From assembly GCA_030681095.1 (NCBI GenBank), contig JAUXTZ010000386.1, positions 1 through 36,940 on the forward strand: 36,940 nucleotides of DNA. The letters are read 5' to 3'. The notes beneath the pieces were generated by a model. It saw only the letters and a program-made list of their open reading frames with translations. It did not search any database and was not told the DNA's origin. The DNA is from Burkholderiales bacterium (GTDB lineage Bacteria; Pseudomonadota; Gammaproteobacteria; Burkholderiales; Thiobacteraceae). A program made the position numbers and the translations under genes. Of the stretch, positions 1,685 to 21,361 are shown piece after piece (positions within the stretch are counted from its first letter, which is position 1; every line of letters begins with the position of its first letter).

Positions 1685-3655
1685 CTAAGCCGCATGTTCT
1701 GCACACCACTTCGCCCACATCCATCGATAGGCTCTTTCGATCTGGCGGGTACGGCCCTTCTCATCGCACAAGGGAGAGTTGGCCACACGCTCACGTAGGC
1801 CGGCACGTAGCGATTCAAGATGATCCAAATTTTGCGCCAAGCCTTGGGCGATCGTTACGTATTCCTCCTCATCGTGAGCGACCAATTCATTGAGCTTCAA
1901 TTTCTTCAGCATCGATCCGCTCCAGCGCGCCACCATATGGTCACCCAGCAGTGTCACAACCGGCACGCCCATCCATAGGGATTCGAAAGTGGTGGTGGAA
2001 CCGGTGAAAGGAAAGGTATCCAGTGCAATGTCGATGCCTGCGTAACGTGCCAGATGCTGCTCACCCGAGTCCGATGCGCTTACCAAATCAAGGCGCTGCG
2101 CTTCGATACCATGGGTCAGGAAAAGATCCAAGAAACGCCGGCGCAGGCTTTCATTTCCAAAGATGTTTTGATACTTAATTGTCAGCCGCGAATCCGGCAC
2201 GGCATGCAGCACCCGCGACCACAACGCCATCACTTTTTCATTTACCTTCGACGGGTTATTGAAGCTGCCGAAAGTGATATAGCCCTTCTCCCGCGCTGGC
2301 GGTAAACCTACGCCCGGCATATTGATCGACGGCGGATGCACGTAGAACGTCGGTAAATGAAACAAGCGCTCCGTAAATGGCTCTTTCGTTTCACGGGGGC
2401 TTAAGCCGTGATCGGTAATCAGATAGTCCATGGCCTTCAGTCCGCTGGTGACGGGGTCATGGAAACTGACTTGTACCGGGGCTGCCCGGCAAGCCGCGAT
2501 CAAGGGCCGGTTGTCGTCAAAACGACCAGCCAACAACACCAGGATGTCGATCTCGTCGCGCCGGATCATCTCCGCCGCATCCTGATCAGATACTCCGACA
2601 ATAGACCGCCAAGCCGTTACCGTGCTCTTAAACCATTCCGTGACGCTATCCGGCCGCAACACATTCCCGTACAGATAAATCTCAAATTTGCTCCGATCAT
2701 GACACCCGATCAAAGGCAAAATATTCCGCCCCACCGGGTGATAGCGAAAATCTGAGGACACATAGCCAATGCGCAGTTTTCTGCGTGGGTCGCGGGTATT
2801 AGGAAAGTAACGATCAATCTCGTGCAAGCCAGCACTCATCCGCACTGCAAAACTGTTTAGTTTTTCGTATAGCACCTCTGGCGTGGTTTCAGGGTGATAC
2901 AACCAGACCGCGAGATAATCCCGGTTGGTATCCAAGGAGTCTGGCTTGATTTCCAGAGCCCGGCGATAGCTGGCAACGGCCTCATCGAGTTGACCGAGGC
3001 TGGCCAACGCCACACCCAGGTTGCGGTGCGCCTCTTCGTAATCAGATTTGATCTTTAGCGCGCGGTGGTAACAGGCGACTGCATCGTCTTGCCGCCTGAG
3101 CTCTTGAAAAGCTATACCCAGGTTGTTGTATCCTTCAACATAATCGGGCTTGATCTTCAGCGCGCGGTGGTAACTGTCCACTGCAGCATCGAGTTGACCA
3201 ATATCCTGCAAGGCAGTGCCAAGGCTATTCCATACCTCGGCATTATCAGGATCGATCTTAAGCGCTCGGCGATAGCTTGCCACCGCGCTGTCGAATTGCT
3301 TGAGGTCTTGCAAGACAAGGCCCAGATTGTTTTGCGCTTCGGCATCATCAGGCAACAGTTCTGCTGCTTTTTTCAAAGCGCATAACGCATCTTTACCTTG
3401 CATCTGTAAGGAGGCGCACAAAAGCTTCCAGCTTATTCCAGATTTTGGAAATTTACCTAGCAACAAACTCGCTTGAACTTCCAACTCCGCATAACGCCCC
3501 GCGTGAAACAAGGCAACCAGTCGATCGAGTTCAATTGAGGATGGCGCAGGAGAGGCGAATGAAGGAGACATCGGTGTGCTCGAAGCCTTGCCGCAACACC
3601 GCTTAAGTTTTTTACCGCTGCCGCAAGGGCATGGCTCATTGCGTGACACATTCAT
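1685..3655 (-). CDS. SEC-C motif + TPR + SPINDLY/OGT-like glycosyltransferase (GT41-like)
   Basis: N-term MNVSRNEPCPCGSGKKLKRCCGK; TPR repeats (NNLGLVLQDLKQFDSAVASYRRALKIDPDNAE); C-term LRIGYVSSDFRYHPVGRN...DTFPFTGSTTTFESLWMGVPVVTLLGD. Confidence 0.9.
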   Translation of the reverse strand: MNVSRNEPCPCGSGKKLKRCCGKASSTPMSPSFASPAPSSIELDRLVALFHAGRYAELEVQASLLLGKFPKSGISWKLLCASLQMQGKDALCALKKAAELLPDDAEAQNNLGLVLQDLKQFDSAVASYRRALKIDPDNAEVWNSLGTALQDIGQLDAAVDSYHRALKIKPDYVEGYNNLGIAFQELRRQDDAVACYHRALKIKSDYEEAHRNLGVALASLGQLDEAVASYRRALEIKPDSLDTNRDYLAVWLYHPETTPEVLYEKLNSFAVRMSAGLHEIDRYFPNTRDPRRKLRIGYVSSDFRYHPVGRNILPLIGCHDRSKFEIYLYGNVLRPDSVTEWFKSTVTAWRSIVGVSDQDAAEMIRRDEIDILVLLAGRFDDNRPLIAACRAAPVQVSFHDPVTSGLKAMDYLITDHGLSPRETKEPFTERLFHLPTFYVHPPSINMPGVGLPPAREKGYITFGSFNNPSKVNEKVMALWSRVLHAVPDSRLTIKYQNIFGNESLRRRFLDLFLTHGIEAQRLDLVSASDSGEQHLARYAGIDIALDTFPFTGSTTTFESLWMGVPVVTLLGDHMVARWSGSMLKKLKLNELVAHDEEEYVTIAQGLAQNLDHLESLRAGLRERVANSPLCDEKGRTRQIERAYRWMWAKWCAEHAA

Positions 3656-3677
3656 AAATTATTTTATCAAACCGTGA

Positions 3678-5921
3678 TTAGCGTTTTTGGCACCAGAATT
3701 GATACATCCCCGCAAAGGTCAGCGGGTTTTTAAGCTCAAACTGATGCCAGCTCTGTAGATCGGTGCCGCGTGGGTCGGCGGGATTAAAGCGCGAATAAGC
3801 TTCGAGCGTCCAGGGATCGGCCTCCATGGCCAGAAAGTCCAAGCCCAACTCATCCAGAGAGGACGCGAGTTGCAAGAGCGTGAACTGATGTTCCTGCACA
3901 TGAAACAACAGATCACGACAATTCGATAGACTGTAAAAATCCCGGCCAAGCAGCGCTGCTTCCGCTAGTGCTGATCCTTCCGGGGCACACAGCACCTGCT
4001 GTCTGAAAGTCCTGATCGATGCCGCATCGTTTCCCAGCTCGGCCTGCTTAATATAATCCCGCGCAAAATTCAGTTTAGCCCGTGCGATTTGGCTATACAG
4101 CGCGATATGCATCAGGCCGCCCGGCATCAGCAAGGAAGCGAGGGCGCGCCATCCGGCAAGTGGATTTTCCAAATGATGCAACACGCCGATGGATTCGATG
4201 ATATGGAATCGTTTTTCCAACTGGCCAAGCGCTAGGATGTCCGCCTGGAAGTACTCAACATTCTCGATGTGCAACTCAGTGGTTTTTCGTGCGGCATACG
4301 CCAGGCTGGCCAGGCTCAAGTCGATGGCGGTGATGTGGGATGCTTGAAACTTCCGCGCGGTCTGAATCGAATGCCGACCTGTGCCGCAGCCCGCGATCAA
4401 TATCTGCATCGGCTGATTGAGGCAACTTGGGATATTGCCGTCGGTAAATAGCCTTCCCAGGCTCACCGCAGGGAGAATCGAATCCACCGGCGACAACGAC
4501 TGCCAACGCGGATAAGGGTTCTCTTCATACTGCTGCCTGACCTCCGCGGAGACACCCGCCGCGATAGGCGTTAGCGACTTGATCCCCGCTTTGATCCGCT
4601 GCTCCTCCCAATACTCTGTGTACTCAATCTTTATAATTTGCTTTAAATAGGCACTGGCAATCACCTCTGAAATCATGTCCTCCGACTTTTCGCGGAGTAC
4701 TGCATGCAAGGGCCGATACAAGGAAATCATCCAGATACGCAGCACAAGCGCAGGACTGATGACGCTGCCAGAATATTCATTCCACATTGCCTTAACTTCA
4801 CCCAATAACGGCACCAGCAACTGCTCTTCCGTTTCCGTACTGCTCCACAAGTGTTCATTGTTGAAACACTGTCGTGACAGACCGAATAAAATCAACTCGA
4901 TGCTGGCTGGAATGCCCGCGTTAAATGCCCCTCTATGCGCCAACAGGAAACGCAACAGTCTCGCTCTAAAACCAGTTGTTGCAAGCTCCAGCCGCGCGTC
5001 TTCCAGCAAACTTTGCGCAAGTACGCCTTCGAAATAGAGGCGGTGCTCTGTTGCGAATTCTCGTAGGGCCTCCAGATGCGTCTCACAGCTTTGGCTGTCA
5101 TCACTCAATACGGTTTCAAGCTGATTCAAAAAGCCATCGCGCGCCTTGAACACCGAAGCTGCAAATGAAGCCAGATCCTGCAAATAGACATGACGCCAAG
5201 TAAAAGCACGCTGAAGGATTGCAAAGTGAGCCGCAGAGGGCGAATCAAAGGTCGCCTTACGGCAGATCTCGACCACTCGTTGCTGCGTGGGCAAATGGTC
5301 GGGGGCAATGGACAAGCATGCATCATAAGCCGCCAGCGCTTCGTCATAGCGCTCCAAACCAAGCAGCGCTTCGCTGTAGCGAATATTTGCTTCTAGATCG
5401 TAGCGCTTAAGATTGAGCGCCTGTTCAGCCGCATGGAGCGCCTCTTCATGGCGCCCCAACATCCCCAGCAGCACACTACGTTGAATATGGGTGGCCAGCG
5501 CTTGTGGATTTTTGCACACAGCCTGGTCCAAAGCCGCTAAGGCCAATTCAGGCTGCCCCATGAGTCCAAATGAAACGCCCATGTTGACGAGCACCGTCGC
5601 GGGATCGGACGCATCGCCCAAGGCAAGCTTAAAAGCGTCGATCGCCTTCTGGTAGCGACCTGTGTGCGCCAACAACAGCCCTTTCTCATTCTGCGCAAAT
5701 GCGTTTTGCGGGCTTAGTTTGGTGGCGCTTTCCAATGCGGCAATTGCCGCGTCCACCAAGCCCAATTCTTTATTGGTCATGCCCAGCATCAACCATGCCT
5801 CGGCATTGATCTTGTCTGCCTTGCAAATTTGTTCGCACACGGTCTTGGCCTCGGACAACTGCCGGTTTTCAAACAATACGCGGGCTTGTTTTAGTTTGGA
5901 TCGGGAGCGGATATTTTGCAT
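3678..5921 (-). CDS. TPR-repeat protein with C-terminal class I SAM methyltransferase domain
   Basis: N-terminal TPRs; QMQILIAGCGTGRHSIQTARKFQASHITAIDLSLASLAYA and IIESIGVLHHLENPLAGWRAL. Confidence 0.88.
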   Translation of the reverse strand: MQNIRSRSKLKQARVLFENRQLSEAKTVCEQICKADKINAEAWLMLGMTNKELGLVDAAIAALESATKLSPQNAFAQNEKGLLLAHTGRYQKAIDAFKLALGDASDPATVLVNMGVSFGLMGQPELALAALDQAVCKNPQALATHIQRSVLLGMLGRHEEALHAAEQALNLKRYDLEANIRYSEALLGLERYDEALAAYDACLSIAPDHLPTQQRVVEICRKATFDSPSAAHFAILQRAFTWRHVYLQDLASFAASVFKARDGFLNQLETVLSDDSQSCETHLEALREFATEHRLYFEGVLAQSLLEDARLELATTGFRARLLRFLLAHRGAFNAGIPASIELILFGLSRQCFNNEHLWSSTETEEQLLVPLLGEVKAMWNEYSGSVISPALVLRIWMISLYRPLHAVLREKSEDMISEVIASAYLKQIIKIEYTEYWEEQRIKAGIKSLTPIAAGVSAEVRQQYEENPYPRWQSLSPVDSILPAVSLGRLFTDGNIPSCLNQPMQILIAGCGTGRHSIQTARKFQASHITAIDLSLASLAYAARKTTELHIENVEYFQADILALGQLEKRFHIIESIGVLHHLENPLAGWRALASLLMPGGLMHIALYSQIARAKLNFARDYIKQAELGNDAASIRTFRQQVLCAPEGSALAEAALLGRDFYSLSNCRDLLFHVQEHQFTLLQLASSLDELGLDFLAMEADPWTLEAYSRFNPADPRGTDLQSWHQFELKNPLTFAGMYQFWCQKR

Positions 5922-6053
5922 ACACGCAATGATAACGCCAGATGAGATGTGCCGAGCAGTGCAAGACTAATTGTCTGGCTAGCCAAGGCACTCTACAATG
6001 ACACGTTATTGCAACTTTACCGTCCATTTCGGCGCGTACACCAAGAATCAATC

Positions 6054-6565
6054 ATGTTAACCACTGATCAATACCGAGAACTCAACGCCCACCTTCACGA
6101 TACCAATCCGCATTACGGCATCAGCTCGTCAAAGTGGGCGCCTGTGGTGGCCGATCAGGTCGGTACGCGAGATATTCTGGACTATGGATGTGGAAAAGGG
6201 CTGCTCAAAAGCACGCTGGGTTGGCCGATCAGAGAATACGACCCTGCTATTCCAGGCAAGGACACGCCGCCCGAACCAGCAGACTTTGTCACCTGCACCG
6301 ATGTGCTTGAGCATATCGAACCGGAATGCCTTGAGCACGTCCTGAATGACCTGCAGCGTCTCACGCGCAAGATCGCTTTTTTGAACATCGCTACCCGACC
6401 CGCAAAAAAATTCTGGCCGAAGGCCGCAACGCGCATTTAATTCTGCAGCAGTTGCCGTTTTGGTTGCCACTGCTCTGGGATCGATTTACCTTGATGATGG
6501 TGGAGAACAACTCGGACGAATTCACCGCTATCGTTGCATCAAAAGAATGGAACCCTTGGGACTAG
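6054..6565 (+). CDS. class I SAM methyltransferase, frame interrupted at an A7 run (annotated ORF stops at 6440; downstream -1 frame continues to 6565)
   Basis: ILDYGCGKGLLKSTLGWPIREYDPAIPG...FVTCTDVLEHIEPECLEHVLNDL; after the A7 run at 6404-6410 the -1 frame reads KKILAEGRNAHLILQQLPFWLPLLWDRFTLMMVENNSDEFTAIVASKEWNPWD*. Confidence 0.75.
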
Positions 6566-6633
6566 GCCATTCGCGCATTCAAGACTCATCTGCCTGCCCG
6601 TAGAACAAGACAGCCACTTCCAGAAAGACAGAT

Positions 6634-7215
6634 ATGGGCGACATCAATCAACTGATCTACCTGAAAACGCTCGTTCCCGCCGTGGACGGCCCCATATTGG
6701 AAATCGGCAGCAAAGACTACGGAAGCACATCGAGCTTCCGCGACACCTACCGTGGGGTCGAGTATGTCGGCTTGGATATGGAAGCGGGTCCCGGCGTGGA
6801 TGTCGTGGCCGATTTAACCCAGGGCACCGGCGCTTTGCCGTGCGAGCACTTTGCATTGGGCATCTGCTGCTCGGTGCTAGAACATGTCCGCAGGCCCTGG
6901 GTGATGGCTGAGCACATCACCAGTTTGATCAGGCCGGGCGGCACGCTTTATATGTCCGTCCCTTGGGTTTGGCGCTACCACGCTTACCCGGATGACTATT
7001 TTCGTTTCTCGTGGCGGGGAATCGAAGAACTGTTCCCGGCATTCACTTGGGACCATATCTGTTACTCCACCAATGTGCCCGAAGAAATCATTCCCATCCC
7101 GCTGGACCAGCCGGGCGTGGACAACCAGATGGCCTTGATGGCCGACACGCCGGGCGGCAAGCGTAAATATCTGCCCTACCTCATGGTCAACATGCTGGAC
7201 ACGAAATCGCGCTAA
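6634..7215 (+). CDS. class I SAM methyltransferase-like protein
   Basis: PILEIGSKDYGSTSSFRDTYRGVEYVGLDMEAGPGVDVVADL...CCSVLEHVRRPWVMAEHITSLIRPGGTLYMSVPW. Confidence 0.8.
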   Translation: MGDINQLIYLKTLVPAVDGPILEIGSKDYGSTSSFRDTYRGVEYVGLDMEAGPGVDVVADLTQGTGALPCEHFALGICCSVLEHVRRPWVMAEHITSLIRPGGTLYMSVPWVWRYHAYPDDYFRFSWRGIEELFPAFTWDHICYSTNVPEEIIPIPLDQPGVDNQMALMADTPGGKRKYLPYLMVNMLDTKSR

Positions 7216-7246
7216 GCCGCCGCCCAGAAAATCGGAGATACCTGCA

Positions 7247-7888
7247 ATGAAAAATCCTGACGCCAGCTGGGACAGCTATTTTTCCTGGTTTCACGACAGC
7301 GATGTCTGGAAAAACATGCACTACCACGGCATCCGCACGCTCAAGCTACCGTCCGACATGTGGAACTACCAGGAAATCATTTTTGAGCGCGGCATCACCC
7401 ATGTCGTCGAAACCGGCACCCGCCACGGCGGCTCCGCCCTTTTTTTCGCGAACACACTCGCCGCCCGCCAGTCTCCCGGCTTCGTCGTGACCGTGGATGT
7501 GGACCCGAATTCGAACCATGTTCGGCAACATGAAAAAATCAAATTCCTGATCGGGGACAGCGGTTCAAGGGAAATGGCCAAAACCATTTTCTCCCACTTG
7601 CCCGAGGCGCGCGGCCCCCTGTTCATGATCCTTGATTCGGACCATAGCCGAACGCATGTCTATCGGGAACTGGAAGCGCTCGTCCCTTTTCTCAGAGCGG
7701 GCGACTATCTCATCGTGGAAGTTTCATGCGTGAATGGTCATCCGGTGCGCCCGGCGTTTGGCCCCGGGCCCTGGGAAGCGGTCCATGAATTCATCGAACT
7801 GAATCCGGGTATGCTCATACCGGACAAACAGCGCGAAAGAAAATTTGGCGCCACCGCCGCGCCGGATGGATACTACGTCAAGGCCTGA
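7247..7888 (+). CDS. cephalosporin hydroxylase/CmcI-like family protein (probable SAM-dependent enzyme of glycan or lipid tailoring)
   Basis: HYHGIRTLKLPSDMWNYQEIIFERGITHVVETGTRHGGSALFFAN...FMILDSDHSRTHVYRELEALVPFLRAGDYLIVE. Confidence 0.8.
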   Translation: MKNPDASWDSYFSWFHDSDVWKNMHYHGIRTLKLPSDMWNYQEIIFERGITHVVETGTRHGGSALFFANTLAARQSPGFVVTVDVDPNSNHVRQHEKIKFLIGDSGSREMAKTIFSHLPEARGPLFMILDSDHSRTHVYRELEALVPFLRAGDYLIVEVSCVNGHPVRPAFGPGPWEAVHEFIELNPGMLIPDKQRERKFGATAAPDGYYVKA

Positions 7889-7934
7889 TGTCCATTCGGA
7901 CACAGCCGCATCGGAATTACAGCAGGCAAGCCTG

Positions 7935-8456
7935 CTAGGCCGCTGGCTTGATGCCCGTAATGCGCATGTCTCTCGGCTCGCGCAATTTGAACTGCGCCGG
8001 TTCCTGGCGCAGCTCGCCCAAGCCGGCTTCGAACATCACCTGCGCCAGGCTGCGCGGCGTATAGGCCCAGCGATGCGTCATCAGGGGATCCTGCCAGGAA
8101 GGGTCTCCATAAAAGACCCACATGCTGCGTTGCCCCTCCTGTCCTGGGCCAGCAGTTATATCCGGATTTTGGAGCAGCTCATGGCATGCCGAAATCAGGT
8201 TGGGGCATTCCAGAATCATCTTGCCGCCCGGCTTCAGCACGCGTACCCATTCCTTGAGCACATCAACCACTTCCCAGCGCCAGAAATGCTCGACCACATG
8301 CACGGATAAAATTTCATCGGCGGCATTGTCTTCAAATGCAGTCAGCTTGTGTAGATCGCAAATCACGTCAGGATGTTTCCCCGCGCGGCTTTCGACTACA
8401 TCCACGTTGACGTACCCAGGGAGAATCTTGTCTCCGCATCCCAAGTTAAGCTTCAA
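7935..8456 (-). CDS. class I SAM methyltransferase
   Basis: MKLNLGCGDKILPGYVNVDVVESRAGKHPDVICDL...EILSVHVVEHFWRWEVVDVLKEWVRVLKPGGKMILECPN. Confidence 0.85.
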   Translation of the reverse strand: MKLNLGCGDKILPGYVNVDVVESRAGKHPDVICDLHKLTAFEDNAADEILSVHVVEHFWRWEVVDVLKEWVRVLKPGGKMILECPNLISACHELLQNPDITAGPGQEGQRSMWVFYGDPSWQDPLMTHRWAYTPRSLAQVMFEAGLGELRQEPAQFKLREPRDMRITGIKPAA

Positions 8457-9447
8457 TGACTGCCTCCCATTGCTTGCCGATCACTTCCGGCGAATAGTGC
8501 GCCGCCACAAAATCCTGTGCCGCGTGGATGCGCGGAACAATTTCGGATTGATGCGACATGACCCAATCGAGGTTGGCGCAGAAATCATCGCCCAGCGGAA
8601 TCCACTCGGCGAAGGGCTGGTACGCCGGCAAAGCGCTCGCCAGTGCAAAACGCCCGGCCCAAACCGATTCAACCAGCCGGTTCGGGCTTTTAACATCTTT
8701 TTTTTCCATGCCCACACGCGAAGGCAACAACACCATATCCGTCTCGCGCAGCTCTTTCCATACCTGCTCAACCGACCACGGCACGATATATACCTTAACC
8801 CGGTTGCCCACCTGCCGATTGAAGATTCTGCACTCTTCCTCCAAGCCCACCCTGGGTCGCGTGCAAATGCGCACCGAAAGCGCCACCTCCGCCTTGCGGA
8901 CAGCCAGTTGGGACAGCAGCACTTCCAGCGTATCCAGATTCACGGGGTGGCCAAACCAGAGCGCCTCGATCCGCCGCCCCGGCCGCCATTTCCATTCAGC
9001 CACGCCCTTTGGGCCTTCATAAGGATCGCCGATGACGGCCGCTTCGCGGCCTGTCTCATCGCTGATTGCCGCGGCCATCTCCTGCGTGTTCGCCACCAGT
9101 GCGTCAGCGCGCGCAAGCATGGCGCGGTCATGGTCGCCTTTTTGCTTCATATCAAACTTATAGTCGCACAAATCAACGATCACCTTGGCGCCGGCACGCT
9201 GGGCCGCCGCCAAAATCTCCTCGTTTGAGGGCTGATTGCTCTTGGAAAATATGATGACATCCGCGTTCATTGCTGCCGACATCGCCGCTTCGGGCTGCTC
9301 AGCGCTGACAATGGATTGAGAATATCCGCGCGCTTCCAACCATCGCGCAGGGATCAACACCCGATAGCGCGTGCTTGCGAAAGGAGAATAAAAAACATCG
9401 CCACGCTTTTCCAGCGTGGAGAAGGTAATCCAGCAGATACGTCGCAT
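8446..9447 (-). CDS. glycosyltransferase (GT-B, GT4-like)
   Basis: MRRICWITFSTLEKRGDVFYSPFASTRYRVLIPARWLEARGYS...LLPSRVGMEKKDVKSPNRLVESVWAGRFALASALPAYQPFAEW. Confidence 0.7.
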   Translation of the reverse strand: MRRICWITFSTLEKRGDVFYSPFASTRYRVLIPARWLEARGYSQSIVSAEQPEAAMSAAMNADVIIFSKSNQPSNEEILAAAQRAGAKVIVDLCDYKFDMKQKGDHDRAMLARADALVANTQEMAAAISDETGREAAVIGDPYEGPKGVAEWKWRPGRRIEALWFGHPVNLDTLEVLLSQLAVRKAEVALSVRICTRPRVGLEEECRIFNRQVGNRVKVYIVPWSVEQVWKELRETDMVLLPSRVGMEKKDVKSPNRLVESVWAGRFALASALPAYQPFAEWIPLGDDFCANLDWVMSHQSEIVPRIHAAQDFVAAHYSPEVIGKQWEAVIEA

Positions 9448-9465
9448 CGTGCTTACCTTAAAACA

Positions 9466-10143
9466 TCAAGCCTGCACACACCGCAACATATCCTCTCGCT
9501 CGCGCAACCACTCGGCGGCATATTCGCAATCGCGGGTGGCAGTGTAGTAAGGCCCACCCAGCGTGTAATGCACCAGCGACACATCCGGGTTAGGCGCATC
9601 GTAATCCACCAAATGATTCCAGCAATGCGGAAGCGTACCGATCAACTCGTCATTGCCCAGCCATTTGAATTGATGCAACTCCAAGCCTGACGCGGTATTC
9701 ACGTATTCTGGCGTTAGCGCACGGCACTTGGCGTTGTTGAAAATCATCACGCTCGACCAATTTTTTTTCTCATAGGCCGTTTGCGGTTCGCCAAGAAATT
9801 TGGTGCCCTCTTTCGGCTTGTGGTCATGCTTCACGCACTGCACCGCATAGCGTTCGTCACACAGCGCCCACAGCTTGGCGATGTCGTCCAGCACGATCAT
9901 GTCGTTGTCCATGAAGATCGAGAAGCCTTCATAACCGGAAAGATACGGCGCCAAAAATCGGCTAAAGGAAAACTCAGTGGACTGGAGTGGATTACGCTCT
10001 CGGTTGAATATTTCCTTCAACTGCGTTAGTGACAGCAGCGAAATATTCACCGGCTCCGATGCACGTGCATTAATGCTATGTGCCAATACGCTCGACAGAG
10101 CGGGAATACGCGAATCGTAGCCAATATATATTTGAATCATTTT
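9466..10143 (-). CDS. glycosyltransferase (GT-A, DxD motif, GT8-like)
   Basis: MIQIYIGYDSRIPALSSVLAHSINARAS...GFSIFMDNDMIVLDDIAKLW; DND/DMD metal-binding region; internal Met (MIQIYIGYD) preferred over the ORF-track start at 10152. Confidence 0.65.
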   Translation of the reverse strand, partial: KMIQIYIGYDSRIPALSSVLAHSINARASEPVNISLLSLTQLKEIFNRERNPLQSTEFSFSRFLAPYLSGYEGFSIFMDNDMIVLDDIAKLWALCDERYAVQCVKHDHKPKEGTKFLGEPQTAYEKKNWSSVMIFNNAKCRALTPEYVNTASGLELHQFKWLGNDELIGTLPHCWNHLVDYDAPNPDVSLVHYTLGGPYYTATRDCEYAAEWLREREDMLRCVQA

Positions 10144-10282
10144 TTTCCTCATTCAGTTTTTCTTAGGGCTTATTCCGAATACGAATAAAAAGTGCTTGAT
10201 TTCCCCATCTCTCTAACCCTCGCCCCGCTTGCGGGCTGAGCCAGGGCAAATGAAAGTCATGCATTTGCCGCACACGTCGCCG

Positions 10283-10797: not shown

Positions 10798-10840
10798 GCT
10801 GGCCTCCCCCGGGTGAGTTAGTGAATGCGGCCATTTTAAA

Positions 10841-10873
10841 AGGTATTCACTAGGTATGCAATAGGTATTCTAA
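10841..10873. repeat. three tandem 11-bp iterons upstream of the DinJ/YafQ operon
   Basis: aggtattcact / aggtatgcaat / aggtattctaa. Confidence 0.7.
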
Positions 10874-11027: not shown

Positions 11028-12695
11028 TTAAGGAGCGTTTCTAACATGTAGATCGCTCGACAACCTAGCCAGAACCTGTTGCCAATCCCCGGAAGAAGTT
11101 TGCCGATAGATCTGAAACCCAGGGAACCAGGGTGATTGCGCTACGTCTTCCATCCAGCGCCAATCTGCGGGATAGGGAATCATCACCCGTGCCGTGCGCC
11201 CCAAGCCCGCCATCAGATGCATATTCGTGTTGCTGACCCCTATATATTCATGGACCAAATTCAGCAATGCCAACATTTCCTCCAGATTTTCGTTGGCCTC
11301 GCTGAAGTCATGCACCTCACGCCCTGCGTAATGCGCGAGTTGCTCGATTTCTCCTGGCTTAGGATGCCGCTGCAATACGACAATTGAACCAGGTAAATCC
11401 TTTAATAGCTCACCCAGCGATTGTATGGGCGCTTCCTTGAACAGCAGTCGCTCGGACTGCTCGGTCCCCGCTCGCCAAGTCACCCCGATGAAATGCTTCG
11501 CGGCGCACTTCGATAAACGTTCACTCATCCGTTTAAGTATTTCGGGCGCTGCCCTCAGCTTAAGCGGGGGCGGAATCTCCGATGCAGACGCCATGCCGAG
11601 CACATAGGGCAAGTTGCCGACGCTCAGCACGGCGTCGAATGCCGACGCATCAACTTCTGCCTGAGGATCCAACCACTCGGTAAATAAGTCCTGGTCAGCT
11701 AATAAAGTTTTCAGCCTGAGCGAGCCTCGGTAGCTTAAGCGCATGCCGAGCGCTTTCAATCCGTAGGTGAAACGCAAAAACAACAACTCATCGCCCAAGC
11801 CCTGCTCCCCCAGTAACAGAACATGAGATCCATTAGGATGTTGAGGTAATTGCGGCGGCACAGTTCGATCTTGCGTGGATAGCGCCCGACAAACATGATT
11901 CGCCCAGCCTTCGCGAAAATTCCCCAGACGCAATTGCAGATAGGCCAAGGCTTCCCGCGCGGCACGATCCTCGGGGGCCAGCGCCAAAACCATTTTTAAC
12001 TTCGCCTCTGCCTCGTCAAAATTACCCAGATATTTATCAACGATACCTAAGCCGTATAAGGTGGTGACACTTTGCGGGTTCTTTTCCAGCGCGGCCAGGT
12101 AGCAGGTTCTCGCCTGTTCGTAATCCTCAAGCGCAGCATAGCTGACGCCCATGTTATGCAACACTAAAGGATGGCCAGGGCTCAGCGCATTCGCTCTTTG
12201 TAAATAGGGCAAAGCCTCTTCATAGCGCTTGCTCTCATTGAATACCATCCCGACATTCAACAGCGCCCCCACATGATCCGGATTGATTTGCAACGCGCTG
12301 AGCCCATAGGCTTGCGCGCTATCCAAGTTACCCATTTCTTTGTTGAGGTAACACAAATTCGAGAGGATTTCTGGATTCTCAGGCTTCAGCTTTTCTGCCC
12401 TGGTGTAATACGCCAACGCCTCGCTTAGCCGCCCGCCAAATAAATACAAGCTACCCAGATTTGCCAGGGCCTCGAAATAATTTGGATCGAGTGAAATGGC
12501 CTGTATATACGCGGCTTCCGCCTCCGCTGGCTGGTTAAGCTGCGACAGCACCTTAGCCAAACCGAAATGCGCCCGTGATTCACTTGGGTTATCGGAAATA
12601 ATATGGCGATAGCATTGTTCTGCAGCGGTAAGGTTTCCCTGTTGGAACAGGGCTTGTGCTTGCGCTAGCAGGCTGATTTCATTATCAAGCGGCAT
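11028..12695 (-). CDS. TPR protein with C-terminal GT9-like (heptosyltransferase-fold) domain, no SEC-C motif
   Basis: TPRs in the N-terminal half; C-term LLLGEQGLGDELLFLRFTYGL...GVTWRAGTEQ...EYIGVSNTNMHLMAGLGRTARVMIPYPADWRWMEDVAQSPWFPGFQIYRQ. Confidence 0.85.
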   Translation of the reverse strand: MPLDNEISLLAQAQALFQQGNLTAAEQCYRHIISDNPSESRAHFGLAKVLSQLNQPAEAEAAYIQAISLDPNYFEALANLGSLYLFGGRLSEALAYYTRAEKLKPENPEILSNLCYLNKEMGNLDSAQAYGLSALQINPDHVGALLNVGMVFNESKRYEEALPYLQRANALSPGHPLVLHNMGVSYAALEDYEQARTCYLAALEKNPQSVTTLYGLGIVDKYLGNFDEAEAKLKMVLALAPEDRAAREALAYLQLRLGNFREGWANHVCRALSTQDRTVPPQLPQHPNGSHVLLLGEQGLGDELLFLRFTYGLKALGMRLSYRGSLRLKTLLADQDLFTEWLDPQAEVDASAFDAVLSVGNLPYVLGMASASEIPPPLKLRAAPEILKRMSERLSKCAAKHFIGVTWRAGTEQSERLLFKEAPIQSLGELLKDLPGSIVVLQRHPKPGEIEQLAHYAGREVHDFSEANENLEEMLALLNLVHEYIGVSNTNMHLMAGLGRTARVMIPYPADWRWMEDVAQSPWFPGFQIYRQTSSGDWQQVLARLSSDLHVRNAP

Positions 12696-13243: not shown

Positions 13244-13270
13244 ACTTAAGACTTCATCGTGCTGCATCAA

Positions 13271-15037
13271 TTAAGAATCAGAAAGATCGCGTGTTAATGC
13301 AGTTAAGGCCTGCCCCCAATCCCCCGCAACCGTCTGCCGATAAAGTTTAAAGCCAGGAAACCAAGGCGATTGATCCCCACTCGCCATCCAGCGCCATTCC
13401 GCCGGAAAGGGAATCAACACGCGCGCCGTTTTACCGAGTCCCGCCATGAGGTGCATGTTGGCATTGCTCACGCCCACATATTCATCCAGCACATCGAGCA
13501 AGGCCAGCATCGATTCCAGATCACCGTTGTATTCACTCAGATCATGTACGGGGCACGATACTTGGGCACGCAGTTGTTCGATTTCGCCCGCAGCAGGCTT
13601 GCGCTGGAGCACTACGATTGCGCCTGTCCAATCCTTGATTGCGCTTGCCAGCGCATCCAGCCCGATTTGCTTGAACAGCGTTTTCGGTTTACCCGGTACC
13701 GGCGGCGATCCGCCGCGCCAGGTGACGCCGAGCAGGCGTTGGCCGATCAGGCCCAGTTCGTTTAGATGCTGCCGTACTTTGGCAACATGCTGTTCGGTGG
13801 GGGAGAACCGCAGTGATGGGGGAATAGTCTCTGTTGAAAAGCATCCCAGCAATAAGGGCAGGTCTCCCACTGGGATAATTAAATCTGTTTGGGGGGCTTC
13901 GTCAAATCGGGATAACACTTGATCCACGCACCCCGATCTTTCGATCAAGGAGTGCACCTTGGCAGTGGACCAATAACCCACCCATTGCGCTTGTTCTCTC
14001 AATTGAGGGACGAAGCGTAGAAAGAAAAGCTCGTCCCCGATGCCTTGCTCATGGCAAAGCAAGATGCGTTTGTCCGCGCTTATGAAAGGCAGCAGGGATC
14101 TCGCCTTAGGTAAAGCGGTGGGTACCCTCCGCTCAACCGCGCACCGAGCATCGCGCCATTCATATTCCTGCCAGCCATGCTCGAAGTTGCCCTGCTCCAA
14201 CAAGAGGTGTGAAAAATTGATGTGCGCAGTATCGTAATCGGGCATGATCTCCAGCGCTCTACGGCAGCAAGCCATCGCATCGTCGAATCGCCCAAGCACT
14301 CTCAACACCGCACCCAAGTTGTTGTGTGCATCAGCGTAATTCGGCTGGATATCTAAAGCCTGGCGAAAGCTTTCCGCAGCACGGTCAAGCTGCCCCAAGT
14401 CTCTCAAGACATTACCCAAGTTGTTGTGCGCGGCCGCGTATTGCGGGTTGAGCTCCAATGCCCGACGGTGGCTGACCACGGCTTCATCAAACTGCTGAAG
14501 CTCATGCAGCACCGCGCCCAAATTGCTATGAAGCTCAGCAATATTTGGATTAATTTTCAGCGCCCGGCGATAGCTCGCTACCGCTGCGTCCAGCTGACCA
14601 AGATCTTTGAGGGCATTGCCCAAATTAGCATGCGCTTCCACAAAGTCCGGCGCCAGCGTCAGCGCCCGGCGGAGACTTATCACCGCATCGGCGTGCTGTC
14701 CGTGCGCTTGCAAGACATTACCCAAATTGTTGTGTATCTCTGCATCATTGGGTAAAAATTCCGCTGCCTTTTGCAAAGCACGCAGTGCATCTTTACCTTG
14801 CATCTGGAGGGAGATGCACAATAACTTCCACACCAACCCGGCCTCTGGATATTGCGCAAGCAGCAAGCGCGTACGGCTTTCCAATTCGGCATAGCGCCCA
14901 GCATTGAACAAGACGGCGAGTTGATTGAAGTCGGCGGCGGTCGGGGTGCGCAGCGCCGTTTTCCCGGCGCAGCAATGTTTGTATTTTTTCCCGCTGCCGC
15001 AGGGGCACGGGGCGTTTCTTCCTGGATGCATGCTCAT
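13271..15037 (-). CDS. SEC-C motif + TPR + GT9-like C-terminal domain
   Basis: MSMHPGRNAPCPCGSGKKYKHCCAGK; multiple TPRs; C-term GVTWRGG...EYVGVSNANMHLMAGLGKTARVLIPFPAEWRWMASGDQSPWFPGFKLYRQTV. Confidence 0.9.
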   Translation of the reverse strand: MSMHPGRNAPCPCGSGKKYKHCCAGKTALRTPTAADFNQLAVLFNAGRYAELESRTRLLLAQYPEAGLVWKLLCISLQMQGKDALRALQKAAEFLPNDAEIHNNLGNVLQAHGQHADAVISLRRALTLAPDFVEAHANLGNALKDLGQLDAAVASYRRALKINPNIAELHSNLGAVLHELQQFDEAVVSHRRALELNPQYAAAHNNLGNVLRDLGQLDRAAESFRQALDIQPNYADAHNNLGAVLRVLGRFDDAMACCRRALEIMPDYDTAHINFSHLLLEQGNFEHGWQEYEWRDARCAVERRVPTALPKARSLLPFISADKRILLCHEQGIGDELFFLRFVPQLREQAQWVGYWSTAKVHSLIERSGCVDQVLSRFDEAPQTDLIIPVGDLPLLLGCFSTETIPPSLRFSPTEQHVAKVRQHLNELGLIGQRLLGVTWRGGSPPVPGKPKTLFKQIGLDALASAIKDWTGAIVVLQRKPAAGEIEQLRAQVSCPVHDLSEYNGDLESMLALLDVLDEYVGVSNANMHLMAGLGKTARVLIPFPAEWRWMASGDQSPWFPGFKLYRQTVAGDWGQALTALTRDLSDS

Positions 15038-15072
15038 CAGTTAAAAGCGAAGCTTAGTCCCGTATTTTATCC

Positions 15073-15347
15073 GTGATCAGAAAGATCGCGTGTTAATGCA
15101 GCCAACGCCTGCCCCCAATCTCCCGCAACCGTCTGCCGATATAAGGCAAACCCGGGAAACCAGGGCGATTGATCCATGCTTGCCATCCAACGCCGGAAAA
15201 GAAATCAACACGCGCGCCGTTTTGCCCAGCCCCGCCATCAGATGCATGTTGGCATTGCTCACGCCCACATATTCACCCAAGACATCGGGCAAGGCCAGGA
15301 TCGACTCCAGATCATCATTGGTAAGGTACATTGCGTGTCACATTCAC
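15073..15347 (-). pseudogene. relic of a SEC-C/TPR/GT9-like paralog: C-terminal ~85 codons fused to the first few codons, with additional frameshift
   Basis: 15073-15330 parallels 13282-13540, lacking 'attccgcc' (8 nt); 15329-15347 reverse complement gtg aat gtg aca cgc aat parallels atg aat gtg tca cgc aat of the 3655 gene start. Confidence 0.8.
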
Positions 15348-15413
15348 AGGCAGCGTTAACGCACTTTATTGGTTCATATGAGGGGATTGTTGTTTGTTTC
15401 GATTGGAAGTCTG

Positions 15414-16826
15414 CTACCAATTGTGAAGAAAAGTATTGTGCGTGTGATACATATTTTGACCGATCAGATGCACATCACTTTCTGACCAGTCCTTTAAGTA
15501 ACGCACCATTAACGAAGGATTGGAAAAACCATTCCCGACAAAAGCTCTAGCTTTTGCAGCCAAATATGCGTCTACCACCACCTCAGCTCCAAGCCGCCGC
15601 CTATCCGGAACAGTTTGGTAATGAATCCCTTTTGCGCTATTCGTCCTTTGGCAGTCAGTAGTGATAATCTTTTTTCCGTATATTTTCTTGAAATAATCTA
15701 AAATCCGCGCGTCATCAGTCATAAGAAAAATATGGTGGCAGTTATAGGAAGAAAGATACTGGTTAATTATCCCCTCGTATTGCCTATTCACTTCATCGAG
15801 GTTATTCAGCTCTAATATCTTGTCCGAACCACGCGCATGCACTGCAATGAAGTCGGGGGAGCCAAGATACGCCTTATAGAAATAACCTACTGCATCTATA
15901 ATTTCCTTTTTGGGATGCAGATACTGGCGCACGAGGTATAAAGATAGCTCATCTACAGAAAGACCATACAAGTGATGCGTCGGCGGAATCCATGGTTTTA
16001 AATCGACAACAGCGGAAAAAAAGTCACTCACTACCACCATTTCTTGGCGGCTCAAAAGATAGAGTCCTGCCATGCGTGAGAAGGTACCTTTCCATTTATT
16101 GACTTCACCCTCCATCAAATTACGATAATTCCATTTTGGTGGCCAAAAATCGAAATTTTCGTTTAGAAGATCGCTCACCCCCCAATCCGAGCATGCCTCG
16201 AAGTAAAACTCAAACGCGTTGGCGGCGGTGCCATCTCCAAATAGGCTATTTTTTCCCCAATGCACGATAGGGATACGCCCAGTTAACTCAGCCACCAAAA
16301 GCTGGCCTAATACGTGACTGACATCAGACCAAAACCCGTAACCCCAAGCCTTTATCAACAAGAATTTCTCGGTGTGATTTTCCAGTTTGGATGATTTGAC
16401 AATCGGGGATCGACCTTGATCGCCTTCTAAGCTCTTGCAAACTTGATCCAGGTTGATCTGAGGCAATTTCCAATCCGGCGCCAATTTAACCGCCTCGCTA
16501 AAGTAGTGCTGCGCAAACTGCGGACGGTTGATTGCAGCGGCAATCCAGCCAAGAAAATTAAGCGCCTTAGGATTATTCAGCTCCCTTCCCAGACGATCAC
16601 GCAACAGAATCTCGGCTTGCGGAAGATTCCCCTTTTGAAGTAATTCAATAATAACTTTATCAAAGTCGTCTGCGTTGTCTTGCTCACCGCAGTTCTCAAA
16701 AGGTAATGAATCTGCGTAAGAGTTACATGGAGGAATGTAAACCCGCTCATCCGAGATTTTGCCGCAACACCGCTTAAACCTTAGGCCACTGCCACATGGG
16801 CAAGGCTCATTACGTGACGTATTCAT
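15414..16826 (-). CDS. SEC-C motif + short TPR-like region + NodZ/FUT8-like (GT23-like) fucosyltransferase domain
   Basis: Internal start MNTSRNEPCPCGSGLRFKRCCGK at 16826; C-term FIAVHARGSDKILELNNLDEVNRQYEGIINQYL...IFLMTDDARILDYFKKIYG...RRRLGAEVVVDAYLAAKARAFVGNGFSNPSLMVRYLKDW. Confidence 0.75.
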   Translation of the reverse strand: MNTSRNEPCPCGSGLRFKRCCGKISDERVYIPPCNSYADSLPFENCGEQDNADDFDKVIIELLQKGNLPQAEILLRDRLGRELNNPKALNFLGWIAAAINRPQFAQHYFSEAVKLAPDWKLPQINLDQVCKSLEGDQGRSPIVKSSKLENHTEKFLLIKAWGYGFWSDVSHVLGQLLVAELTGRIPIVHWGKNSLFGDGTAANAFEFYFEACSDWGVSDLLNENFDFWPPKWNYRNLMEGEVNKWKGTFSRMAGLYLLSRQEMVVVSDFFSAVVDLKPWIPPTHHLYGLSVDELSLYLVRQYLHPKKEIIDAVGYFYKAYLGSPDFIAVHARGSDKILELNNLDEVNRQYEGIINQYLSSYNCHHIFLMTDDARILDYFKKIYGKKIITTDCQRTNSAKGIHYQTVPDRRRLGAEVVVDAYLAAKARAFVGNGFSNPSLMVRYLKDWSESDVHLIGQNMYHTHNTFLHNW

Positions 16827-16910
16827 GGGTTCACTTTTCAAATGCCAATTTTTTTGTGTCGACTTGACCAACGCTTGATCTGAGTCCGCAGTCCCGGCCA
16901 AAGAGAGAGT

Positions 16911-19571
16911 TTATTCCCGCCCGTTCCACTTGCGCCACATCCCCCACAGTGCCGCCTCAAAATTTCGCGCAAAGCGTGGAGCATCATAAACTGGTGAAGC
17001 CAACACGCGCGCTCTCTGCCCTGCACGCAGGTTCGCCAGCTTAGACAGATCATTAGTAAGGCTAATCGCTTTTTCAACGTAGCCCGCTTCACTAGTAGCG
17101 GCCCACTCCCCCAACCCTGCCGGGGTGACCACACCTGCTCCCTGCCTTGCCAGAAGCGTATCCCCTCCCAACGTTAACGTCGGCACCCCCATCCACAATG
17201 CTTCGCAAGTCGTGGTGACGCCGGGGTAGGGAAACGTATCCAACATCACATCCACTTCGGCGTAACGGCCTAGGTATTCTGCACGCGACTCAGCGGCACC
17301 ACGCGTCGCTACCCGTTCCGGGTCAATACCATGTTGCTGCAAGCGTTGTAGAAACTGCGCTGCCACACCTGGATCTCCCAACTGTTTGTTCGCAAAAAGC
17401 AGCCGTGCGTTGGGGAGCGCAGATAATATCCTCCCCCACGCTTTCAGCACCCCCTCACCCATCTTGTCCATGCGCTGGAAGCAACCGAAGGTCAAGTGGC
17501 CATTTTCAAATGCGGGCAAAGCGGCGACGGTAAGGTCAAACTCAGGGGGGGTGAAGCACAACCAGATATCAGGCAGATACCACACGCTTTCGGTGAAGTG
17601 CTCCTGGTGCGCCTTGGGTACCGCCACCTCTGACGTCAGCAAAAAGTCCATCTCCGCTACCCCCGTGGTGGCGAAATACCCTAGCCAACTCGCCTGTATG
17701 GGCGCCGGCTTCCAGGCAAACATGGGTAAACGGTTGTGAGCGGTATGGCCGGAAATATCCAGCAGAACATGCACCCCATCCGCGTGAATCAGGCGCGCCG
17801 CCGCTTCGTCGCTCTGACCGAACAAAGGTTTCCAGGCGGCAAAGTGAGGCCGGATGCGGACGGTCAACTCGTCAGCCTTGGAGGTAGTGGGATAAGCGAT
17901 CAGTTCAATCCGGGCTGGGTCAAGCTGCACCAGCAGACTTTCCAGTGCATAGCCAACAGGGTGATTACGCAGATCACCCGACACCAGCCCTACTCGCAAG
18001 CGTTCAGGTTTTGTTTCGCACCGCCAAGCAGAAAAACGTTCTACCGCACGCTTAGACACTATCCGGCCATATTCGTGTGCCGCATCAAGGCAATTGGATG
18101 TGGCATGAGTGTCAGTGAAATTAAGGGCAAAAAGCAGATTGCTGTATGCCATGGTGAAATCCGGCTTGATAGCCAACGCCTGGCGATAACTGGCTACTGC
18201 GTCATGAATCTGCCCAAGGTCTTTCAGGGCATTGCCCAAGTTGTTATGCGCATAAGCATCATAGGGATTGATTGCCAATGCTTGACGGTAGCTGGCTAGC
18301 GCAGCATCGAGTTGCCCGAGATCTTGTAGAGCCATACCCAGACTGTTGTGCGCATCAACGTAATCGTGTTTGACCTCTAGGGCTTTACGACAGCATGCCA
18401 CCGCTCCTTCTAACTCCCCCAATCCCTTTAGAGCAAGGCCCAAATTGTTATACGCCTCGGCAAAGTCAGGTTTGATTTCCAGCGCCCGGCGGTAACATGC
18501 CATTGCGCCATCGAATTGTCCGAGTGCTTGCAGTGCTGTGCCCAGGTTATTGTGCGCATCAGCGTAGTCCGGTTGTATTTCCAGCGCCCGGCGGTAGCTC
18601 GCCACGGCCGCATCGAGTCGCCCAAGGGCGCGCAACGCTATCCCTAAGTTGTATTGCGCATCTACGAAATCGGGCTTGATCTCCAGCGCTTTCCGGCAAC
18701 TGATCATCGCGTCCTCAAACCGCCCTAGCCCTTGCAAAGCCGTAGCCAAGTTACTGTAAGCCTCGGCATAATCCGGGTTATTCTCAATCGCGTGACGGTA
18801 ACTTTCTACCGCAGCTTCGGATTCCCCTCGCGCTTGCAGCACAGTGCCCAGATTGTTGTGTGCGTCCGCGTAGTGCGGATCCAGTTCCAGCGCTTGCTGG
18901 TAACACGCTACCGCTTCATCAAGCTGCCCCTTGTCTCTCAATACATTGCCCAGGTTGTTGTGCGCGGCTGCATATTGCGGGTTGAGCTCCAATGCACGGC
19001 GGTGGCTGGCCGCTGCTTCATCAAACTGCTGAAGCTCATGCAGTATCGCCCCCAGGTTGCTGTGAATCTCGGCAACATGCGGATTGATCTCAAGGGCTTT
19101 GCGATAGCTCGCTACCGCAGCATCGAGCTGGCCCAAATCCTTCAGGGCATTGCCCAAATTGGCGTGCGCTTCGACAAAGTGAGGCGCCAGCGCCAGCGCC
19201 CGGCGGAAACTTGCTGCCGCTTCGGCATGTAAGCCGAATACTTGCAAGGTATGGCCCAGGTTATTGTGTGTCTCGGCATCATTAGGTAAAAATTGCGCTG
19301 CTTTTTGCAAAGCACCCAATGCATTTTTGCCTTGCATCTGAAGGGATAGACCTAAAGCCTTCCAGCAAAAGCCTGCGTCCGGATATTGCTCAAGCAGAGA
19401 ACGCGCCCGGTTTTCCAATTCCGCATATCGCCCGGCATTGAACAGCGCGATTAGTTGATTAAAGTCGGTGGGCGCTAGCGCACGCGGCGCAGCTTTCTCT
19501 GCACAGCAATGCTTGTATTTTTTGCCACTACCACAGGGGCATGGGGCGTTTCTTTCAGGAGGCATACTCAT
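16911..19571 (-). CDS. SEC-C motif + long TPR array + SPINDLY/OGT-like glycosyltransferase (GT41-like)
   Basis: MSMPPERNAPCPCGSGKKYKHCCAEK; about 12 TPRs of 34 aa; C-term LRVGLVSGDLRNHPVGYALESLL...VMLDTFPYPGVTTTCEALWMGVPTLTLGGDTLLARQG. Confidence 0.93.
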   Translation of the reverse strand: MSMPPERNAPCPCGSGKKYKHCCAEKAAPRALAPTDFNQLIALFNAGRYAELENRARSLLEQYPDAGFCWKALGLSLQMQGKNALGALQKAAQFLPNDAETHNNLGHTLQVFGLHAEAAASFRRALALAPHFVEAHANLGNALKDLGQLDAAVASYRKALEINPHVAEIHSNLGAILHELQQFDEAAASHRRALELNPQYAAAHNNLGNVLRDKGQLDEAVACYQQALELDPHYADAHNNLGTVLQARGESEAAVESYRHAIENNPDYAEAYSNLATALQGLGRFEDAMISCRKALEIKPDFVDAQYNLGIALRALGRLDAAVASYRRALEIQPDYADAHNNLGTALQALGQFDGAMACYRRALEIKPDFAEAYNNLGLALKGLGELEGAVACCRKALEVKHDYVDAHNSLGMALQDLGQLDAALASYRQALAINPYDAYAHNNLGNALKDLGQIHDAVASYRQALAIKPDFTMAYSNLLFALNFTDTHATSNCLDAAHEYGRIVSKRAVERFSAWRCETKPERLRVGLVSGDLRNHPVGYALESLLVQLDPARIELIAYPTTSKADELTVRIRPHFAAWKPLFGQSDEAAARLIHADGVHVLLDISGHTAHNRLPMFAWKPAPIQASWLGYFATTGVAEMDFLLTSEVAVPKAHQEHFTESVWYLPDIWLCFTPPEFDLTVAALPAFENGHLTFGCFQRMDKMGEGVLKAWGRILSALPNARLLFANKQLGDPGVAAQFLQRLQQHGIDPERVATRGAAESRAEYLGRYAEVDVMLDTFPYPGVTTTCEALWMGVPTLTLGGDTLLARQGAGVVTPAGLGEWAATSEAGYVEKAISLTNDLSKLANLRAGQRARVLASPVYDAPRFARNFEAALWGMWRKWNGRE

Positions 19572-19600
19572 CAGTTAAAAGAAAATTTTGGTCCCGTATT

Positions 19601-21361
19601 TTATACGTGATGGCAAAGATCGTGCTTAAGCGCAGCCAGCGGCTGCCCCCAACCCCCCGCAACCGACTGCCGATAAAGTTTAAAGCCGGGGAACCAAGGC
19701 GACTGATCCCCGCTCGCCATCCAGCGCCATTCCGCCGGAAAAGGAATCAACACCCGCGCCGTTTTACCCAGCCCCGCCATGAGATGCATGTTGGCATTGC
19801 TCACGCCTACATATTCATCAATAACATCAAGCAAGGCCAGCATCGATTCCAGATCGTCGTTGTATTCACTCAGGTCATGAACCGGACACAACACTTGGGC
19901 GCGTAGTTGTTCGATTTCGCCCGCGGCAGGCTTGCGCTGGAGCACGATGATCGCGCCTGCCCAATCCTTGATTGCATCGGCCAGCAAGTCCAGTCCAATT
20001 TGCTTGAACAGTGTCTTCCGCCGGCCAGGCACGGAGGGTGATCCGCCACGCCAGGTCACGCCGAGTATGCGTTGACCGGTCAGGCCCAATTCGCTTAAGC
20101 GTTGATGCACTTTAGCGACATGCTGCTCAGTGGGGGAGAAGCGCAGCGACGGAGGGATCGCCTCAGTCGAGTTGCATGCCAGCAACAAGGGAAGATCGCC
20201 CACCGGGAGGATTAAATCCCTTGGTGGTGCTTCATCAAGTCGGGAAAAAACCTGATCCACACACCCGGCTCTCGCAATCAAGGTATGCACCTTGGGCGTC
20301 GACCAATAGCCCACCCATTGAGCTTGTTCACGCAACTGGGGTGCAAATTGCAGAAAAAAAAGCTCATCTCCGATGCCTTGCTCATAGCAAAGCAATATGC
20401 GTTTGCCCGCGCTTGTGAAAGGCAGCAGGGATTTCGCTTCGGGCAATGGCACGTTCGCGGCATCCCGGCTGTAACGCCATGCGTACTCTAGCCAGCCACG
20501 CTCGAAGTCGCCTAGCGCCAGCAAGACATGGGCTAAATTGCTATGCGCGTGGGCATAGTCAGGCTTAATCTCCAGCGCCCGACGATAGCTAGCCACTGCT
20601 TCAGCAGCTTGTCCAAGGGCTTCCAGCGCTACGCCCAGATTGTTGTGCGCCTCAGCGCTATCCGGTTGAATCTCTAAAGCCCGGCGGAAGCTGGCTAACG
20701 CTGCATCAAGGCGACCAAGGTCTTTCAGCGCATTGCCCAGATTTCCATACGCCTCGACGAAATTGGGGTTGATTTCCAGCGCCCGGCCGAAGTTAGCCAC
20801 TGCATCATCGGGCCGCCCTACATCTTGCAGGGCGACGCCCAAGTTGTTGTACGCCTCGGCATATTGGGGGTTGATGCTCAATGCCCGGCGGTAACTTGCC
20901 ACTGCTACATCGAGTTGACCAAGATCTTTCTGGGCGTTGCCCAGATTGTTGTGCACTTCGGCGATATGCGGGTTAAGCCCCAACGCCCGTCGGTAACTTA
21001 CTATCGCACCGTCGATCTGCCCGAGGTCTTGCAGGACATTGCCCAAGTTGATGTGCACTTCGACATCACCCGGCAACAACACGGCAGCTTTTTGCAGGGC
21101 GGATAAGGCATCTTTACCTTGCACTCCGAGAGCCGTGCCGAACAGCTTCCAGGCAATACCAGAGCCCGGATACCGTTCAACTAGCGCGCGCGCTTGGCTT
21201 TCCATCTCCGCATAGCGCCCTGCATGAAACAGCGCAATCAACTGGCTTAGCTCGGCAGACGGCACAGACGGGCGGTGCTCGCCTTTTGCTTGGCAACAGT
21301 GTTTGTTTTTTTTACCGCTACCGCAGGCACACGGGGCGTTTCTTTCGATCTTCATATTCAA
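19601..21361 (-). CDS. SEC-C motif + TPR + GT9-like C-terminal domain
   Basis: MNMKIERNAPCACGSGKKNKHCCQAKGE; TPRs; C-term EYVGVSNANMHLMAGLGKTARVLIPFPAEWRWMASGDQSPWFPGFKLYRQSV. Confidence 0.9.
   Translation of the reverse strand: MNMKIERNAPCACGSGKKNKHCCQAKGEHRPSVPSAELSQLIALFHAGRYAEMESQARALVERYPGSGIAWKLFGTALGVQGKDALSALQKAAVLLPGDVEVHINLGNVLQDLGQIDGAIVSYRRALGLNPHIAEVHNNLGNAQKDLGQLDVAVASYRRALSINPQYAEAYNNLGVALQDVGRPDDAVANFGRALEINPNFVEAYGNLGNALKDLGRLDAALASFRRALEIQPDSAEAHNNLGVALEALGQAAEAVASYRRALEIKPDYAHAHSNLAHVLLALGDFERGWLEYAWRYSRDAANVPLPEAKSLLPFTSAGKRILLCYEQGIGDELFFLQFAPQLREQAQWVGYWSTPKVHTLIARAGCVDQVFSRLDEAPPRDLILPVGDLPLLLACNSTEAIPPSLRFSPTEQHVAKVHQRLSELGLTGQRILGVTWRGGSPSVPGRRKTLFKQIGLDLLADAIKDWAGAIIVLQRKPAAGEIEQLRAQVLCPVHDLSEYNDDLESMLALLDVIDEYVGVSNANMHLMAGLGKTARVLIPFPAEWRWMASGDQSPWFPGFKLYRQSVAGGWGQPLAALKHDLCHHV

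Follow-up and report, generated by a model that had tools for sequence, protein, structure and literature searches.

The means by which glycosyltransferases of the bacterial cytosol recognise the proteins they modify are still an open question. In the Caulobacter flagellin O-glycosyltransferase FlmG, a soluble protein with an N-terminal tetratricopeptide repeat (TPR) region and a C-terminal GT-B head that modifies its substrate in the cytosol before export, the TPR region alone binds the flagellin clients (PMC7591256). SPINDLY, OGT and the bacterial GT41 enzymes (7y4i, 3pe3, 5djs, 2jlb) are likewise built as a TPR superhelix followed by the GT41 domain. On its own, the metal-binding (SEC-C) domain of SecA sediments together with ribosomes, to which it can be crosslinked near uL23 (PMC6620043); an interaction with SecB is reported for YecA/AscA, whose domain is near-identical, in work that PMC8076867 cites as un-peer-reviewed. 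SEC-C is found together with TPR-like repeats in mycobacterial Rv0613c / MSMEG_1285, a protein that binds the surface protein HBHA and affects its exposure there (PMC6032435). Here we describe an island of transferase genes in which an N-terminal SEC-C domain precedes TPRs and several different catalytic heads. It lies on a 36,940-nt contig (C353; JAUXTZ010000386.1 of assembly GCA_030681095.1), hereafter the window, from the 3.16 Mb draft genome of a member of the Burkholderiales, family Thiobacteraceae.

The whole genome yields seven matches to SEC-C (Pfam PF02810), five of them at N-termini encoded in the island (E-values 9.4e-11 to 7.1e-5); the other two belong to a YchJ-like protein and to the tail of SecA, which falls on a contig edge. 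An initial annotation of the window had described five minus-strand genes that begin with this motif, and the profile search bears it out for every one. Gene A (1685..3655, 656 aa; SEC-C at 3587-3643) and gene F (16911..19571, 886 aa; SEC-C at 19500-19553) have GT41 (SPINDLY-like) C-termini, preceded by TPRs, about 11 of them in gene F. Gene D (13271..15037, 588 aa; SEC-C at 14966-15019) and gene G (19601..21361, 584-586 aa; SEC-C at 21290-21343) combine TPRs with a GT9-like C-terminus. Gene E (15414..16826, 470 aa; SEC-C at 16758-16814) has a weak TPR and a C-terminus like fucosyltransferases of the NodZ/POFUT/FUT8 type. Gene G is called from a TTG at 21361, and the in-frame ATG at 21355 (MKIERNAP) suits the family better. 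Two further minus-strand genes do not encode SEC-C, as described before: gene B (3678..5921, 747 aa), a TPR protein with a class I methyltransferase domain, and gene C (11028..12695, 555 aa), a TPR-GT9-like protein.

The domains that follow SEC-C are assigned with unequal strength. Behind every one of the five SEC-C domains Pfam detects TPRs, strongly in four genes and with roughly one weak repeat in gene E (TPR_2, E-value 6e-4). The GT41 heads are secure by profile (E-values 3.5e-50 for gene A and 2e-45 for gene F), and matches to SPINDLY reach 1.5e-138 for the whole of gene F and 3.5e-81 for the head of gene A. In both heads one His and one Lys fall in the conserved His and Lys columns of human OGT and SPINDLY, which belong to the catalytic site of those enzymes. 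Genome-wide, GT41 is found in five genes, two of which have SEC-C. The head of gene E matches NodZ (1.8e-9), FUT8 (1e-4) and also POFUT1, with similarity spanning the GDP-fucose-binding half, and is best described as NodZ/POFUT/FUT8-type fucosyltransferase-like, with use of GDP-fucose predicted. (An AlphaFold2 model of gene E alone, with a predicted local distance difference test score, pLDDT, of 36, was not used; the family was set by profile search.) The GT9-like label, proposed together with the other two head types, is the weakest domain assignment among the five SEC-C genes. The heads of genes C, D and G have no Pfam match above the cut-off, and four of eight relatives have a weak GT9 match (best 5e-5). 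A fold model bearing on this label, built from the window sequences alone, has a mean pLDDT of 50 and is confident in its C-terminal half only; the top structure match of this low-confidence model is E. coli heptosyltransferase II (E-value 2.1e-4, TM-score 0.39), with another GT9 structure also among the first.

Each of the described systems resembles these proteins in part. FlmG as described lacks SEC-C; the island genes lie away from flagellin and flagellar genes and join several heads to one kind of N-terminus. Compared with SPINDLY and OGT, the island proteins add the SecA-like metal-binding domain at the N-terminus and a distinct cap segment. YecA/AscA, YchJ and other proteins with SecA-like metal-binding domains share a near-identical SEC-C, but the cited account (PMC8076867) gives no fusion of it to TPRs or transferases, and in the island the domain is at the extreme N-terminus. 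Rv0613c / MSMEG_1285 is actinobacterial, has no reported glycosyltransferase head, and has been ascribed a function in export. NodZ, POFUT1 and FUT8 (2hhc, 3zy2, 2de0) match the head of gene E by profile, but this head is divergent, and the bacterial homologues found are mostly fused to TPRs without SEC-C.

The SEC-C domains themselves look like more than a metal site. All five in the island have the ligands CxCGSGx5C[CH], score above the Pfam cut-off, and keep the basic and aromatic surface residues of the SecA type (RN..KK[YF]K). Across 33 aligned N-terminal SEC-C domains the CxCGSG...C pattern never varies, nor do one Arg and one Lys, and the SecA-type basic residues in general are almost invariant. 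Their consensus, RN.PCPCGSGKK[YF]K, matches the tail of the SecA encoded in this genome (GRNDPCPCGSGKKFKHCH) everywhere but at the last ligand. The YchJ-like SEC-C of this genome (IICPCGSGHAFSTCC) departs from the consensus and is without the flanking basic residues. Because the basic and aromatic residues are conserved in the N-terminal domains and differ in the YchJ-like one, the comparison argues for a SecA-like binding surface beyond the metal site. In paralogue and orthologue pairs, nonsynonymous divergence (dN) is 0.02-0.21 in SEC-C codons, where synonymous divergence (dS) runs from about 0.9 to saturated, and 0.12-0.77 in the adjacent linker; only 18-19 SEC-C codons enter each pair and single values are noisy, with the direction identical in 9/9 pairs. 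Judged by these codons, SEC-C is under strong purifying selection. It might alternatively be an iron or zinc sensor, or an oligomerisation element, that regulates ordinary TPR protein glycosyltransferases with no docking involved: the metal ligands are the best-conserved residues, and use of iron in vivo has been reported for the SecA-like domain (Cranford-Smith et al. 2020a, cited in PMC8076867). We consider this quite improbable, as the surface residues that are not ligands (R, N, KK, Y/F, K) are conserved too, and differ in the YchJ-like domain.

The seven genes stand between coq7 (1018..1641, minus strand) on the left and a porin gene (22106..23281, minus strand; then trpC-trpD-trpG-trpE) on the right. 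Locus comparison puts these two borders 20.4 kb apart in the window and 108 bp apart in G004, a genome of the same genus, so that the cluster, already taken for an island in the initial annotation, is a genuine genomic island with an empty site in a congener. In a second congener, G003, genes also fill this interval at its two ends, but the set differs from that of the window: SEC-C-GT41, SEC-C-GT9, GT9 and GT8 genes at the porin end, and a methyltransferase gene with two SEC-C-GT41 genes at the coq7 end.

Within the island the heads are visibly exchanged under a common N-terminal module. The first 286 aa of genes D and F show 70.6% identity, with DNA similarity extending about 80 nt upstream, yet the heads of the two are unrelated; between genes D and G, 70% identity runs along the full length. 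A 68-nt block common to genes A and E begins exactly at the ATG and finishes with SEC-C. Gene E appears to be a recent addition that picked up its SEC-C tag, because the closest outside relatives of its head are TPR proteins without SEC-C and its G+C content is low (0.448 vs 0.53-0.57 in its neighbours). The gap between genes D and E (15038-15413), on which the initial annotation is silent, holds the remnant of a further GT9-like gene (15076..15347, minus strand). Its reading frame is broken, and 253 nt of it match the 3' end of gene D at 84% identity, which points to repeated rounds of duplication and deletion within the island. It is preceded by a possible SEC-C start (VNVTRNVP), a short and tentative match.

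The head exchange proposed for the window is broader than the window shows, and is seen directly across an order. Reading of the fetched loci finds N-terminal SEC-C with TPRs in 18 genomes of the order besides that of the window (G003, G005, G015, G042, G043, G046, G047, G070, G077, G091, G100, G113, G122, G129, G192, G217, G259 and G283) and in one proteobacterial metagenome-assembled genome (MAG; L009), the kind of genome survey that had been called for. Such counts are lower bounds, a limited number of candidates having been scored per genome. Within the family, SEC-C plus cap occurs in 3/10 genomes. A profile of SEC-C and cap has matches at E <= 1e-12 in 37 of 300 genomes of the order, many of them through the TPR cap alone. 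A contig scan gave mostly SEC-C-only matches, the useful ones being a close relative in Gallionella (L008) and the SEC-C-TPR-methyltransferase of L009; a phylum-wide profile search, with 11 candidates scored per genome, was swamped by plain TPR proteins and says little about the distribution of SEC-C.

Behind N-terminal SEC-C elsewhere, most heads are GT41. GT9-like heads are found in L126, L139 and L144, and methyltransferase heads in L009, L136 and L142, those of L009 and L136 being homologous to the C-terminus of gene B. Two genes in L130 have sulfotransferase heads (Pfam E-values 1.6e-49 and 1.9e-41). These two, in a Gallionella MAG, are convergent (8519-10096 and 10168-12141), and one adjoins a glyA-like gene. 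Other domain combinations and SEC-C proteins occur elsewhere. L144:7268-9559 starts with DUF5672 and finishes in a GT9-like region, with SEC-C and then TPRs in between, which places the tag between two possible transferase heads. L019:2372-4930 (852 aa) joins SEC-C to a UPF0149 (YecA-family) domain and a weak TPR. The 1318-residue open frame L186:1-3954 combines GT41, a NodZ/POFUT-like domain of the gene E type and a methyltransferase-like region. In G221:C1, eight equal-score matches, each a 162-aa SEC-C open frame, are dispersed over one chromosome, which is suggestive of a mobile element.

The architecture is real and recurrent, and its sequences point to TPR-type cytosolic protein glycosyltransferases with a SecA-like tag, a function that we infer. 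Homology with SecA, YecA/AscA, FlmG and SPINDLY suggests that the SEC-C enzymes would glycosylate proteins. In the most economical model, a plausible one, SEC-C at the extreme N-terminus would be the shared tag by which these enzymes dock at the ribosome exit site and/or on SecB, the client protein would be picked by the TPR solenoid, and the C-terminal head (GT41/SPINDLY-like, GT9-like or NodZ/POFUT-like, with sulfotransferase or methyltransferase in relatives) would attach a sugar or some other moiety. Once docked, the enzyme would be locally enriched around nascent or export-competent proteins, which could then be modified ahead of folding and export. Protein clients are suggested by the GT41 and POFUT families and by FlmG; the docking partner, ribosome or SecB, and any coupling to synthesis or export are presumed by the same kind of analogy. 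SecB is encoded in 10/10 family genomes, a precondition for docking that does not discriminate. We give close to an even chance to the island being a set of soluble, cytosolic, protein-modifying transferases with SEC-C docking tag, TPR client selection and exchangeable head. The fuller proposal, in which a SecA-like tag recruits hexosyl-, fucosyl-, sulfo- and methyl-transferase heads to ribosomes or SecB in a cytosolic modification system that is coupled to synthesis or export and evolves by head swapping, is rather unlikely to hold as a whole.

Should docking be confirmed, a shared, mutable tag with exchangeable heads would offer a direct genetic handle on client finding; it would also give SecA-like metal-binding domains a new function outside SecA and link protein modification to synthesis or export. 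The model suggests that bacteria may be able to direct glycosylation to proteins that have just been made or are bound for export. Whatever becomes of the docking idea, an architecture that recurs across an order appears to be undescribed, since we found no account of SEC-C joined to TPRs and glycosyltransferases in the open-access literature searched.

The same enzymes could instead build or decorate a surface polysaccharide, with TPRs as the scaffold of an assembly complex and SEC-C as a metal-binding element of the fold. GT9-like heads do resemble lipopolysaccharide heptosyltransferases, methyltransferase and GT8-like genes also lie in the island, and one SEC-C homologue (L149) adjoins genes for a nucleotide-sugar aminotransferase and a Polysacc_synt_2 protein. 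Those neighbours, however, could just as well provide a sugar that is transferred to proteins, as happens with FlmG; characterised GT41 and POFUT-type heads act on proteins, and among the large open reading frames of the interval no flippase, polymerase or transporter was recognised by reading. We judge a role in polysaccharide improbable.

Among protein clients, flagellin and porin had been put forward at the outset, and neither is favoured by the loci. Porin was rejected as a client by adjacency, as it stands at the same place without the island in G004. Flagellin, lowered as the main client of the island, has its own TPR transferase in this genus: in the present genome the flagellin gene is on another contig (C206), where it immediately follows a TPR-GT9-like gene that is truncated at the N-terminus by the contig end and still spans 971 codons or more; genes reading as flaG, fliD and fliS come next. 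The intact flagellin-adjoining counterparts in G003 (1182 aa) and G006 (1242 aa) are both without SEC-C. The very large TPR-GT9 proteins that abut flagellin in this genus (L239:10208-13756, L243:3100-6828) and lack SEC-C are likely flagellin glycosyltransferases.

That the island enzymes are simply flagellin O-glycosyltransferases of the FlmG type, with SEC-C incidental, would account for the TPR-GT architecture with a GT-B head as in FlmG (PMC7591256), for flagellin being present in all family genomes, and for two SEC-C enzymes, L139 and L137, that lie 5.5 and 6.4 kb from flagellin genes. For the island the genomic link is missing, as its genes are not beside flagellin or flagellar genes, and no SEC-C-TPR gene was detected in congeners such as G004 and G006, which have flagellin. 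Among the fetched loci, flagellin lies within 2.5 kb of 0/23 SEC-C loci vs 7/22 SEC-C-less cap-protein loci (Fisher p 0.004), and within 10 kb of 2/23 vs 8/22 (p 0.035), the loci not being phylogenetically independent (the seven amount to about four genera). The chance that this explanation is correct seems small to us. Because flagellin in this genus adjoins a separate TPR-GT9 protein, without SEC-C where the N-terminus is intact, the SEC-C enzymes probably serve other clients.

Some observations weigh against docking through a SecA-like tag. L139 (which adjoins motA/motB) and L137 show that a SEC-C enzyme may also be encoded in a motility cluster, and SecB docking alone cannot explain these two, because flagellin does not travel by the Sec route. 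Of the 33 N-terminal SEC-C domains, 32 have Cys as the fourth ligand, where the SecA of this genome has His. SEC-C motifs are found in many unrelated proteins, and the domain could serve metal-dependent folding or dimerisation only. These loci are best read as a sign that enzymes with SEC-C have a client set of their own, and docking at the ribosome could cover clients outside the Sec pathway too.

The island also carries small sugar- and methyl-transferase genes (5949..10152), partly conserved in a congener: methyltransferase-like genes at 5949-6440 and 6634-7215 (by reading), a CmcI-type methyltransferase gene at 7247-7888, and GT4-like (8446-9447) and GT8-like (9466-10152) genes, both below the Pfam cut-off. 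A small GIY-YIG-like open reading frame (12897-13187, by reading) lies between genes C and D. Toxin-antitoxin-like pairs, recognised by reading only as RelE/RHH-like, YefM/YoeB-like, RelBE-like and AbrB/VapC-like, lie within or beside the island (10283-10797, 21430-21910, 23597-24078 and 24349-24994), and at the corresponding position a congener has a PemK/MazF-like gene (L126:14959-15297, Pfam E-value 1.9e-16).

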